A stretch of 64,000 nt of DNA from an uncultured Alphaproteobacteria bacterium (GTDB lineage: Bacteria > Pseudomonadota > Alphaproteobacteria > Sphingomonadales > Sphingomonadaceae): assembly GCA_903934325.1 (NCBI GenBank), contig CAIZNH010000041.1, positions 62,001-126,000 of the forward strand. The letters run 5' to 3'. Shown piece after piece: positions 22,400-33,757 of the stretch. Numbering within the stretch: position 1 is the stretch's first letter; each line of letters begins with the position of its first letter. The position numbers and the translations under genes were made by a program. The notes beneath the pieces were generated by a model. It saw nothing but the letters and a program-made list of their open reading frames with translations, had not been told where the DNA came from and searched no databases.

Positions 22400-22587
22400 T
22401 CGCGGCTGAAGATCGCCTCGATCGGCAGGCCGAACACCTCGGCAATGCTGAAGGCGAGCGGGAGCGAGGGGTCGTAGCGGCCGGTCTCGATGGCGTTGAC
22501 GCTCTGGCGCGAGACGCCGAGCCGGTCGGCGAGGTCCTGCTGGCTCCAGCTGCGTTCGGCGCGCAGCACCTTGAGGCGGTTGTTCAT
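22396..22587 (-). CDS. Small XRE-family transcriptional regulator
   Basis: A 63-residue protein that is almost only a helix-turn-helix domain: LKVLRAERSWSQQDLADRLGVSRQSVNAIETGRYDPSL, then AFSIAEVFGLPIEAIF. This is the YozG-like type often encoded next to small membrane proteins. The ATG at 22587 overlaps the stop of the preceding membrane protein gene (ATGA). Upstream in-frame codons belong to that gene. It probably represses its own operon; the candidate promoter at 23373-23401 would be the target. Confidence 0.9.
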   Translation of the reverse strand: MNNRLKVLRAERSWSQQDLADRLGVSRQSVNAIETGRYDPSLPLAFSIAEVFGLPIEAIFSRD

Positions 22588-23183
22588 TCGCCGCGCACTT
22601 TCATCCAGAGCTGGGCGAGGCCGAGGCCCACCGCCCAGACCGGCAGCACCCACCAGGCCCAGATGTGCGGGACGAGCTCGAACATCTCCAGAAAGCCCCA
22701 GAAGATGCCGATGGCGAGCACCCCGCCAAGGCTCATGATCGCCGCGCGCACCATGCGGTAGCGCAGGTATTCGTCCTGCTCCTCGACGAGGTAACGGCCC
22801 ATCGCCCAGATCATCGCGAAGGTCGGCAAGGTCGGCAGCAGGGCGATGGCGAAGGCCACCGGGCCGGACAGCTCGTAATTGTTCCACAATGCGATGGCGA
22901 TGCCGAGGCCGAGAACATAGCCGAAAGACGCGGCGAGGATGCGGCGGTTATAGCGCACCATCACCGGGCTGGCGCAATTCTGCCGCTCGCCCGCGCGCAC
23001 CAGCGGGATCAGCAGGCCCATCGCGCCGACGAACAGGATCATGGCGACTGTGCTCGTAATCGCGTCGGTCAGCTTGAGCGCGACGATGATGGCAGACGAG
23101 GCGAAATAGTTCCCCGCCCAGAACCACGGGCTGCGGCCGGCGGAGGTGCGGGCCGGGGTCTCGGTATCCTCCACCCTCAGCAC
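22584..23183 (-). CDS. Membrane protein cotranscribed with XRE regulator
   Basis: A protein of about 199 residues with four to six hydrophobic helices, for example ILAASFGYVLGLGIAIALW, ALLPTLPTFAMIWAMGRYLV and IMSLGGVLAIGIFWGFLEMF. A polar loop in the middle carries the stretch EEQDEYLRYRMVR, a motif that recurs next to small XRE regulators in other genomes (recollection, not searched). The start is uncertain: a GTG at 23183 overlaps the stop of the upstream small gene, while a TTG at 23198 and a GTG at 23174 are also in frame. Function is unknown; it may pass a membrane signal to the regulator. Confidence 0.75.
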   Translation of the reverse strand: MLRVEDTETPARTSAGRSPWFWAGNYFASSAIIVALKLTDAITSTVAMILFVGAMGLLIPLVRAGERQNCASPVMVRYNRRILAASFGYVLGLGIAIALWNNYELSGPVAFAIALLPTLPTFAMIWAMGRYLVEEQDEYLRYRMVRAAIMSLGGVLAIGIFWGFLEMFELVPHIWAWWVLPVWAVGLGLAQLWMKVRGE

Positions 23184-23359
23184 CCCCGCACGGCGCAATT
23201 GCCGCGGCGGCTGATCACGAAGGGCACCACCATCAGCGGCACCATCTGCGCGACGGTTGCAGGGACGATGTCGAAAATCGCCAGCAAGGCCGTGGCGATC
23301 GCAAAGGTCGCGATCAGCAGGGCATAGACTTTGGACGACATGGAAAGCTCATTTTGCAT
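23177..23359 (-). CDS. Small membrane protein, first gene of the XRE operon
   Basis: A 60-residue peptide with two hydrophobic helices (YALLIATFAIATALLAIFDI and VAQMVPLMVVPFVI) and a basic, Cys-containing end (SRRGNCAVRGC). The ATG at 23359 lies about eight bases after the predicted transcription start; an ATG at 23341 would remove six residues. Its stop overlaps the start region of the next gene, so the three genes are translationally linked. Coding is supported by the chain of overlaps and the membrane-like composition, not by recognised homology. Confidence 0.6.
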   Translation of the reverse strand: MQNELSMSSKVYALLIATFAIATALLAIFDIVPATVAQMVPLMVVPFVISRRGNCAVRGC

Positions 23360-23372
23360 AATGGCAAGGGTG

Positions 23373-23401
23373 CTTTACATCTGAGTCGCGGTCTATGTCA
23401 A
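23373..23401 (-). promoter_or_regulatory. Candidate promoter of the XRE/membrane-protein operon
   Basis: On the minus strand a perfect -35 TTGACA (23396-23401) is followed after 16 bases by TGTAAA (23374-23379) as a -10-like element. Transcription would begin near 23367, just before the first gene. TTGACA is the consensus for the housekeeping sigma factor. The region is shared with the divergent thrS promoter about 25 bp away, so the two could influence each other. Confidence 0.5.
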
Positions 23402-23424
23402 GGACGCTTTCCGTCAACTTGGAG

Positions 23425-23453
23425 ATGACTTTTAACCCTTGGCGGCCTATAGC
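23425..23453 (+). promoter_or_regulatory. Candidate promoter of the thrS leader
   Basis: ATGACT (23425-23430; four of six matches to TTGACA) is separated by 17 bases from TATAGC (23448-23453; four of six to TATAAT). The predicted start point, about 7-8 bases after the -10, is 23460-23462. That coincides with the ATG of the threonine-rich leader, so the leader mRNA would be leaderless. This is a reading of hexamers only. Confidence 0.45.
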
Positions 23454-23461
23454 CCCCCGCC

Positions 23462-23533
23462 ATGGCCAAGCTGCTGACCACGACTGCCACCACCACCACC
23501 CGGACTATCCGGGGGCGGGGTGCTGCGGCTTAG
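23462..23533 (+). CDS. Threonine-rich leader peptide upstream of thrS
   Basis: A 23-codon frame beginning MAKLLTTTATTTTRT and ending in Ala codons before TAG. It has eight Thr codons in the ten positions 23477-23506 (three Thr, Ala, four Thr, Arg, Thr). Its stop lies 128 bp before thrS. A cluster of codons for the amino acid handled by the downstream synthetase is the hallmark of ribosome-mediated attenuation. No ribosome site precedes the ATG, but the predicted transcription start is at or next to it, as known for the leaderless trp leader of Sinorhizobium. Too short for ordinary gene finding; the peptide itself probably has no function. Confidence 0.72.
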   Translation: MAKLLTTTATTTTRTIRGRGAAA

Positions 23534-23613
23534 GCCCAGGCACCGCCGCCCGGATCGGGGCGGCGCGGTGTCCTTCCCGAACCGGTAACCTGCTCAACAC
23601 CGCTCTTCCGGTG
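23509..23613 (+). promoter_or_regulatory. Putative threonine attenuator structure of thrS
   Basis: Four RNA segments can pair in competing ways. Segment 1 (23509-23523, CCGGGGGCGGGGTGC) pairs with segment 2 (23540-23553, GCACCGCCGCCCGG) in an 11-bp stem with one bulge. Segment 2 also pairs with segment 3 (23558-23570, ending GCGGTG) in about 11 bp. Segment 3 end GCGGTGT (23565-23571) also matches ACACCGC (23597-23603), which in turn can pair as CACCG/CGGTG with 23609-23613. Segment 1 starts three bases after the last Thr codon, so a ribosome stalled there would block it. No U-rich run follows, so the terminating element, or a translational alternative, is unresolved. Confidence 0.55.
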
Positions 23614-23661
23614 CGATGCCCTTTGTCCTAAGGCCCGCGCCAAACGAGACGGATGTAAACG

Positions 23662-25656
23662 ATGACCGAACTGCTCAAGATCAGCCTCCCCGATGGATCG
23701 GTGCGCGAAGTGCCGCAGGGCTCGACCCCGGCGGATATCGCGGCGGCGATCGGCCCCGGCCTTGCCAAGGCGGCGCTGGCGGCACGGGTCAATGGCGAGC
23801 TGCGCGATCTTGGCCGCCCCTTCGATGGCGATGCCGAGCTGGCGCTGGTGACGAGCCGCGACGAGGCCGACGCGCTCGAACTCGCGCGCCACGACTATGC
23901 CCACGTGCTGGCCGAAGCGGTGCAGGCGCTGTTCCCCGGCACGCAGATCACCTTCGGCCCTGCGACCGATGACGGCTTTTATTATGACGTGAAGGCCCCA
24001 GCGACCCGCGAGCCCTTCGGCATGGATGATCTGCCCGCGATCGAGGAAAAGATGCGCGAGATCATCCGCGCCGACAAGCCGCTGACCCGCGAAGTGTGGA
24101 GCCGCGAGGCGCTGATCGCCAAGTGGGCGTCCGAGGGCGAGACGTTCAAGGCCGAATGGGCCAAGGAACTGCCCGAGGGCGAGGAACTGACGGTCTACTG
24201 GAGCGGCAAGGACTGGCTCGACATGTGCCGCGGGCCGCACCTGCCCTCGACCGGCAAGCTTGATCCCGACGCCTTCAAGCTGATGCGCGTCGCCGGGGCA
24301 TACTGGCGCGGCGACCAGAACAATGCGCAGCTTACGCGCATCTACGGCACCGGCTGGCTCAACAAGAAGCAGCTTTCCGCTCACCTCACGCGCCTTGAGG
24401 AAGCCGCCAAGCGCGACCACCGCAAGCTCGGCCGCGAGATGGACCTGTTCCACTTGCAGGAAGAGGCCCACGGCTCGGTGTTCTGGCACCCCAAGGGCTA
24501 TCGCATCTGGCGCGAGCTCGAGAGCTATATGCGCCGCAAGATGGACGGCGGCGGCTACCGCGAGATCAAGACCCCGCAGCTGATGGACGTGCGCCAGTGG
24601 ACCCAGTCGGGCCACTGGGGGAAGTATGCGCAGAACATGTTCGCCGTGCCCGATATCGTCCCCGATGTGGACGAGGAGAGCGGGGTTGCCTCCCCCAAGG
24701 TCGCCGATGATGCGGCGTGGATGGCGATCAAGCCGATGAACTGCCCGGCTCACGTGATGGTGTTCAAGCAGGGCATCACCTCCTACCGCGATCTGCCGAT
24801 CCGGCTGGGCGAGATGGGCTGCTGCCACCGCAACGAGCCCCATGGCGCGCTCCACGGCCTGATGCGCGTGCGCCAGTTCACGCAGGACGACGCGCATATC
24901 TTCTGCACCGAAGGCCAGGTGGTGGGCGAAGTGCAGGCCTTCATCGCGCTGGCGGATTCGGTCTACCGCGACTTCGGCTTCACCTATGACATCAAGCTCG
25001 CCCTGCGCCCCGAAAAGCGCTTCGGCAGCGAGGCCGATTGGGACAAGGCCGAGCAGGAATTGCGCGACGCGCTGACCGCGAACGGGCTGGAGTGGGAAGA
25101 ACTCCCGGGCGAGGGCGCTTTCTATGCGCCCAAGCTCGAATGGCACCTCACCGATGCGATCGGGCGCACCTGGCAGGTCGGCACGATCCAGTCGGACCGG
25201 GTTTTGCCCGAGCGTCTCGATGCGAACTACATCGGCGAGGATGGCGAAAAGCACCGCCCGGTGATGCTCCACCGCGCGATCTTCGGCTCCTACGAGCGGT
25301 TCATCGGCATCCTGATCGAGCATTTCGCCGGCAAGCTTCCCGCATGGCTCGCGCCGGTGCAGGCGGTGGTGGCGACCATCGTGTCCGACGCTGACCCCTA
25401 TGCCGAGGATGTCGCGGCCCAGCTGCGCGCCGCCGGTATCCGCGTCGAGACCGACACCCGCAACGAGAAGATCAACTACAAGGTGCGCGAGCACTCGCTC
25501 GCCAAGGTCCCGCACCTCTTGGTGGTCGGCAAGCGCGAGGCCGAGGAAGGCACCGTCGCCGTGCGCACCTTGGGCGCGGAGCACCAGAAGGTGATGCCGC
25601 TGGCGGAGGCAATCGCAATGCTGAAGGGCGAGGGCACCCCGCCGGATCTGGCCTAA
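23662..25656 (+). CDS. thrS: Threonyl-tRNA synthetase
   Basis: A 664-residue class II aminoacyl-tRNA synthetase that charges tRNA-Thr. Domains in order: TGS (1-62, [19 protein letters not shown]); editing domain with [10 protein letters not shown] and the later [12 protein letters not shown]; and a catalytic domain from about 245. Zinc ligands are seen in [10 protein letters not shown] and DDAHIFC plus the late [13 protein letters not shown]. Motif 2 is [19 protein letters not shown]. The anticodon-binding domain (about 560-655) ends [20 protein letters not shown]. The ATG at 23662 is preceded by GAGACGG. Expression may be controlled by the threonine-rich leader just upstream, which would raise synthetase levels when charged tRNA-Thr is scarce. 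Confidence 0.97.
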
Positions 25657-33686: not shown

Positions 33687-33757
33687 CCCGCTGTAAGCGG
33701 GCCGGACATTGGAGAGGGTGTCCGAACATGGCGGCGGGTTATCCCGCCGCCTTTTTT
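33687..33757 (+). terminator. Three consecutive stem-loops ending in an intrinsic terminator
   Basis: The 3' region of the M23 gene has GCCCGC/GCGGGC (33687-33703, loop TGTAA) and CGGACA/TGTCCG (33704-33725, loop TTGGAGAGGG). The terminator proper is GGCGGCGGG-TTAT-CCCGCCGCC followed by TTTTTT (33730-33757). The last is a textbook Rho-independent terminator. The two extra hairpins are unusual for a simple transcript end and could belong to a 3'-derived small RNA. Confidence 0.88.

Follow-up and report, generated by a model that had tools for sequence, protein, structure and literature searches.

A putative threonine-codon leader peptide attenuator upstream of thrS in Sphingomonadaceae

A threonine-rich leader upstream of thrS

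In an uncultured member of the Sphingomonadaceae, thrS is preceded by a short, threonine-rich leader open reading frame (ORF) and a chain of alternative RNA hairpins, which probably act together to raise the output of threonyl-tRNA synthetase (ThrRS) when charged threonine tRNA is short. We interpret this region, which lies in the 64-kb stretch of DNA analysed here (the window), as a ribosome-mediated attenuator that would sense charged tRNA-Thr and control thrS, and we give this reading a probability of about 0.65. It is based on the conservation of the leader among relatives, covariation in the helices, the overlapping coordinates that make successive helices mutually exclusive, and the predicted folding of the first two alternatives, A:B and P3, in most of the leaders studied.

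The leader ORF (positions 23462–23533, forward strand) has 23 codons, encodes MAKLLTTTATTTTRTIRGRGAAA and stops 128 nt upstream of the thrS ATG at 23662. The downstream gene (23662–25656, forward strand) is identified as threonine--tRNA ligase by the NCBIfam model TIGR00418 (638 bits against a cutoff of 384). Eight of ten consecutive leader codons specify threonine (at 23477, 23480, 23483, 23489, 23492, 23495, 23498 and 23504), and these are the candidate regulatory codons (23477–23506, forward strand); coordinates and ORF list thus confirm the 23-codon frame with eight Thr codons in ten, ending 128 bp before thrS, that the original prediction had described. When short ORFs of 10–60 codons were scanned on both strands of the whole 64-kb window, with every start codon counted, the leader alone had at least seven Thr codons in ten, the runner-up having six. 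Upstream of the leader, both open frames (22584–23198, which has no NCBIfam match, and 23177–23359) are on the minus strand, which suggests that the thrS unit may begin with the leader.

A search of the same genome for runs of five ACN codons returned 20 places, of which four (L314, L318, L319 and L322) have a short ORF with five or six Thr codons in ten and the remaining 16 at most four; L314, L318 and L322 were rejected as further Thr leaders, all three overlapping longer open frames. The window's own leader, with a longest run of four, escapes this pattern, so further leaders in the genome, including any before threonine biosynthesis genes, may have escaped it too.

Conservation of the leader in Sphingomonadaceae

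thrS was detected in 146 of 149 Sphingomonadaceae genomes, and 100 upstream stretches were taken, chiefly at loci that matched better, which weights this set towards nearer relatives. With the best short ORF considered at each locus, at least five Thr codons in ten were present in 47 of 101 loci, the window counted; after one locus (L044) was dropped and three loci with four Thr codons at the same place were added, Thr-rich leaders were accepted at the same place in 48 of the 100 thrS loci, leaving 52 with no accepted leader. A Thr leader also precedes thrS in 17 of 73 further named loci (80 minus seven duplicates of the first set, with six outgroup rows among them and one locus, L129, offering only 101 nt of upstream sequence). 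Two of these 17, L103 and L110, were left out of the alignment, and in the 64 aligned leaders the stop codon lies 116 to 169 nt ahead of thrS. Locus L103 (PHEL01000034.1) retains the leader, with its stop 50 nt before thrS, and the stretch from P3 to P5 is gone, which is either a real deletion or an assembly fault.

In a ThrS tree covering 81 rows, built with a quick method and without bootstrap, leader presence takes seven changes, compared with a mean of 20.2 when presence was shuffled (0 of 500 shuffles as low). The leader is found in every row of a 14-row clade around the window, mostly Erythrobacteraceae, is mixed among Novosphingobium rows, and occurs as isolated cases in Sphingopyxis sp. 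LC363, Blastomonas natatoria and three Sphingomonas rows. Culture-collection strains, Erythrobacter ramosus JCM 10282 among them, are found among the near relatives and should make a reporter test practicable.

In the leader peptides a Thr run tends to lead into a P..RGRSVA-like tail, the codons of which double as 5′ arms of RNA helices, and the distance from the last Thr codon to the stop codon is exactly 30 nt in 33 of the 64 leaders. Third positions of the Thr codons differ across leaders (242 C, 93 T, 87 G and 26 A), a variation that is silent in the Thr frame only. ACT and ACA are commoner in the leaders (93 and 26 of 448 Thr codons) than in three genes of the window (4 and 0 of 86); ACA or ACG is present in 59 of 64 leaders, and ACC or ACT in all 64.

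Mutually exclusive helices and their covariation

Between the Thr codons and thrS, the forward-strand RNA can form helices that share bases in succession. The A:B helix (23513–23523/23540–23551; 11 pairs, one bulge) has segment B in common with the P3 hairpin (23545–23551/23558–23564; seven pairs), P3 shares bases with the P4 hairpin (23550–23559/23576–23585; nine of ten pairs), and the loop of P4 holds the 5′ arm of the P5 helix (23565–23571/23597–23603; seven perfect pairs), the candidate terminator. By coordinates, therefore, A:B blocks P3, P3 blocks P4 and P4 blocks P5. The alternative stems of the original prediction (segments 1–2, 2–3 and 3–4) are present, with support from the partner swaps described below, and we take them to be A:B, P3 and P4; P5 was absent from that prediction and is supported by covariation. 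An inverted repeat further downstream, P7 (23610–23615/23636–23641), overlaps a thrS-proximal element. The P1 hairpin (CCCGGA-CUA-UCCGGG, 23499–23513) covers the last Thr codons and is compatible with A:B; it was rejected as an A:B-excluding partner, since the coordinates of the two meet at 23513 only and P1 therefore lies outside the switch, and it is perhaps a pause hairpin.

Covariation was assessed by exchanging 3′ arms between species, with arms cut by alignment columns and 5,000 permutations, a procedure that, like the shuffles below, allows incompletely for kinship among sequences. The true partners paired better than exchanged ones for P4 (z = −12.6), P3 (−6.8), A:B (−5.8) and P7 (−5.0) in 64 sequences, and for P5 (−8.6) and P1 (−2.7) in 61; no permutation was as good for P4, P3, A:B or P5, and 29 of 5,000 were for P1. 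A hairpin between P5 and P7 (P6, CACCG-CUCUUC-CGGUG) that looks good in the window was dropped, having z = −0.4 in the same 61 sequences with 1,715 of 5,000 permutations as good.

Pairs were also counted in a MAFFT alignment made by sequence alone, with shuffled and slid controls. For A:B, P4 and P7 together, 76.6% of cells are paired (71.5% shuffled, 35–47% slid) and the covariation score is 0.226 (0.158 shuffled, 0.052–0.118 slid; 0 of 500 shuffles reach it); their 98 double-change cells (49.8 shuffled) are not distinctive, because the slid control gives 41–91. For P3 and P5, paired cells reach 91.2% (87.0% shuffled, 37–51% slid), the covariation score 0.204 (0.141 shuffled, 0.036–0.072 slid; 0 of 500 shuffles) and double-change cells 41 (13.1 shuffled, 9–17 slid); the count of further pair types in these two helices was not above shuffles, 198 of 500 reaching the same value. 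Changes on both sides were seen in 11 of 13 counted pairs of A:B, in which about 75% of cells are paired, in five of nine counted pairs of P4 and in four of six counted pairs of P5, in which 91.7% of cells are paired and C-G is replaced by U-A at two pairs, in 11 sequences each. Upstream of thrS in relatives, then, both short Thr-rich frames and covarying stems were found, as the original prediction anticipated: the leaders are conserved and the paired segments covary, where a lack of either in near relatives would have spoken against it.

A model for ribosome-dependent control of thrS

We infer a mechanism that would link the start of transcription, leader translation, termination at P5, the response to threonine and, for the window, the P4/P5 step, as follows. 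Transcription would start at or just before the leader AUG, yielding a nearly leaderless leader mRNA. With Thr-tRNA scarce, a ribosome would stall in the Thr run and leave segment A free to pair with the emerging B; B would then be unavailable for P3, and segment C would pair with D to form P4, the antiterminator, whose loop would trap the 5′ arm of P5 and prevent P5, so that RNA polymerase would continue into thrS. With Thr-tRNA plentiful, a ribosome at the stop codon would cover A, B and C would form P3, D would be left uncaptured, P5 would form and transcription would end before thrS. The attenuator reading of the original prediction is supported in this form; with segments 1–4 alone and 3:4 as the terminator, the sign would be wrong. 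P4 cannot be the terminator because a stall before segment 1 would give A:B plus P4, that is, thrS off under starvation, and the addition of P5 restores the expected sign and makes P4 (3:4) the antiterminator.

Equilibrium folding, which ignores the order of synthesis (D before E), was computed for the 64 leaders using the RNA not covered by a ribosome placed on the Thr codons or at the stop codon. In the stalled state the median number of expected pairs was 12.1 for A:B and 0.06 for P3; with the ribosome moved to the stop codon, P3 had 7.9 expected pairs and the median for P5 rose from 2.5 to 5.8. Stalling lowered P5 by more than one pair in 29 of 64 leaders and raised it in six, and P4 was higher on stalling in 23 and lower in three. 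Within this model, the A:B/P3 switch is clear over the set and the P4/P5 switch is partly seen. The window itself illustrates the switch poorly: on stalling, 6.9 expected pairs of P3 persist alongside 9.4 of A:B, and little of P4 or P5 is predicted with the ribosome in either place (P5, 0.1 versus 1.2). Its nearest relatives favour P3 over A:B when stalled (L101, 11.3 versus 0.5; L102, 7.1 versus 4.8).

The near absence of P4 and P5 from these predictions for the window would suit a Thr run that arose by chance or from a repeat and has no function, as would the fold energy of 226 nt of the window, which is mildly better than that of shuffles (z = −1.96; 8 of 200 as stable) and is weak evidence taken alone. 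Conservation across genera, silent third-base change, a fixed place and covarying helices already disfavour such an origin, however, and we regard it as extremely improbable. Under the attenuator reading, the region has the features of a leader-peptide attenuator in the broad sense: clustered codons for a single amino acid, codons cognate to the product of thrS, and exclusive helices that are predicted to depend on ribosome position.

Transcript start, termination and the thrS-proximal element

A promoter-like pair (GATGAC, 17 nt, CTATAG; 23424–23452, forward strand) lies at a distance from which transcription would be expected to start at, or a few nucleotides before, the leader ATG; a strict sigma-70 scan returned no site at this pair. 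In 55 of 64 leaders the first in-frame ATG is preceded by a −10-like YTAN box that starts 12–17 nt upstream of it, compared with 147 of 2,304 positions (6.4%) at control offsets, and a Shine-Dalgarno-like tetramer precedes the leader in two of 64. The placement of the YTAN box and the near-absence of Shine-Dalgarno sequences argue for a transcript start near the leader AUG, and the leader transcript is probably leaderless or nearly so.

Scanning for canonical terminators gave none in 23380–23680, which bears out the lack of a clear U-run remarked on in the original prediction; the stem plus U-run before the structural gene that defines trpL/thrL-type attenuators was not found. Because P5 has no clear U-run, we treat it as a putative terminator, at which termination might be intrinsic with a poor tail or be helped by Rho or NusG. 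It is followed by a weak U-rich stretch (UCUUCC, 23604–23609, forward strand), a modest T enrichment confounded by the element downstream, and a run of at least four T within 10 nt of the end of P5 occurs in nine of 64 leaders. The terminator-like scan returned a good site with six T at 33730–33751 and overall matched shuffles (10 versus 9.8). In locus L049, which has no Thr leader, another stem-like stretch with TTTT was seen by eye about 60–100 nt before thrS, ahead of the proximal element.

Translation of the leader might instead alter Rho access or thrS translation, with the hairpins gating a Rho site or ribosome access and no intrinsic termination. The missing U-run is consistent with this, thrS itself has a Shine-Dalgarno-like tetramer in just seven of 64 loci, and the helix covariation holds whichever output is used; against it, the thrS start region lies outside every covarying helix and a U6 terminator is present in the unrelated family of G212 (see below). 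We consider this route unlikely.

The CTTCCG-N16-CCTAAG element between P5 and thrS (23605–23641, forward strand) overlaps P7 and could be a thrS-proximal promoter or an RNA hairpin. A CTT-N16-GCCATG-like element, defined with motif alternatives picked after sequence inspection, occurs in 55 of 64 loci that have a leader and 43 of 103 that have none (means of 0.9 and 1.7 after shuffling), and its spacing is 16 in 54 of the 55. Nine loci that have no leader ORF (L008, L019, L044, L047, L049, L055, L076, L083 and L089) retain it, as judged by motif or by eye. The conserved CTT after P5 matches the first half of the element; it persists in loci where leader and P5 are lost, so it may be part of the element. 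The element may be thrS's own promoter, letting part of the transcripts skip the attenuator, and its promoter-like portion (23605–23632) means that transcription may start downstream of 23533, which would count against the original prediction. These counts, and its persistence in the nine loci, are consistent with most thrS transcripts starting at 23605–23641 and the attenuator tuning a minor second promoter. The strict sigma-70 scan gives no site there, yet it misses the leader's promoter-like pair too, and the same stretch is the covarying inverted repeat P7; we hold this arrangement to be possible, though rather doubtful.

In E. coli, thrS has a translational operator near its start site, an anticodon-arm mimic bound by ThrRS, and P7 could by analogy be bound by ThrRS or another protein. 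A hairpin conserved upstream of thrS, its loop included, would fit such a site, but inspection by eye led us to reject an anticodon mimic, since an anticodon-like NGU is not kept in the loop (UGU and UCU both occur), and we judge P7 binding improbable.

Threonine leaders in other alphaproteobacterial families

Among 40 hand-picked thrS loci from other alphaproteobacterial families, three (L184, L188 and L209) have a cluster of at least five Thr codons. In the family of G212, Thr leaders precede thrS in eight of ten loci (L271–L278), for example MTARTTTTATTTRTSCGGP; none was found in L280, and L279 has merely about 150 nt upstream. Six U's follow the stop codon at 55–58 nt, behind a GGAGGG stem arm, in seven of the ten (L271–L277), and the end of the leader frame offers the CCCTCC partner of this arm an alternative in GGAGGG or a close variant of it. 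The predicted layout is a textbook antiterminator with a canonical U6 terminator.

Evidence is weaker for a Thr leader in the family of G213 (L281–L310), in which a short ORF ending in RT precedes thrS in 30 of 30 loci, with two to five Thr codons in ten; TTGAC lies 20–45 nt upstream in all 29 loci with a correctly placed start, and nine of ten inspected have a GGCCGGG...CCCGGCC hairpin after the stop codon. A leader with seven Thr codons in ten occurs in two of 22 loci (L241 and L247) in the genus of G198, no Thr leader having been found in the remaining loci of the 22; the leader stops of L241 and L247 lie about 250–280 nt before the thrS match. RNA layouts differ between families when compared by eye, and the leaders may have arisen repeatedly or turned over fast.

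On present evidence it is an even bet that the window holds a relay attenuator (A:B, P3, P4, P5) with a terminator that has no U-run, a leaderless mRNA and, as target, a synthetase gene not known to be under such control, and that Thr leaders are general for alphaproteobacterial thrS. Part of that same joint reading is that several alphaproteobacterial families, with differing RNA layouts, have gained or kept Thr leaders. If it holds, leader attenuation would be a general control of alphaproteobacterial thrS, much as T-boxes are in Gram-positive bacteria.

Comparison with known systems

The E. coli thrL attenuator (Rfam Thr_leader) governs the thrABC operon, senses threonine and isoleucine and ends in a U-run terminator. 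Like the thrS leader it has a Thr-rich peptide followed by exclusive hairpins; unlike it, thrL targets biosynthesis genes and has the U-run. Rfam 15 gave no match at gathering thresholds in 12 relatives, Thr_leader and T-box included, and in the window (22500–24500, E up to 1) no Thr_leader or T-box match and three weak matches to unrelated families. The pheM-pheST attenuator of E. coli is likewise a synthetase operon governed through codons for its own amino acid, but it is gammaproteobacterial, uses phenylalanine in place of threonine, has fewer helices and ends in a canonical terminator. The T-box riboswitch of Gram-positive thrS binds tRNA directly and has no leader ORF, and like the attenuator proposed here it raises thrS when tRNA-Thr is uncharged. 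The Sinorhizobium meliloti trpL attenuator has a trp-type layout with a U-run terminator.

The S. meliloti trpL (rnTrpL) transcript is reported to begin at the leader AUG and to be leaderless (PMC10117765, PMC7298713); it resembles the thrS leader, whose transcript is probably leaderless as well, in being alphaproteobacterial, and differs in controlling trpE. In Sinorhizobium, a Thr/Lys-rich small ORF is reported before an aspartate dehydrogenase gene (PMC10117765). A ribosome-profiling-based coding-sequence map of Caulobacter crescentus includes a leader coding sequence before trpS (PMC4117421), also an alphaproteobacterial leader ORF before a synthetase gene and different in using tryptophan. 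In bacilli, a His leader before hisS/hisZ paralogues, found through a search for Rho-independent terminators (PMC2965389), likewise has codons cognate to the synthetase; it differs in being from Firmicutes and in using histidine.

The original prediction knew of no established Thr-codon leader on alphaproteobacterial thrS, and a literature search, over the accessible portions of mostly non-subscription papers, likewise came upon none. The region would combine a known kind of control with an apparently unreported target, an unusual helix relay and no canonical terminator. If this is correct, leader-peptide control of synthetases (pheST, hisS, trpS) extends to thrS, an extra alternating helix pair keeps the sign of the attenuator right with a terminator placed farther downstream, and the leader is a Gram-negative counterpart of the thrS T-box.
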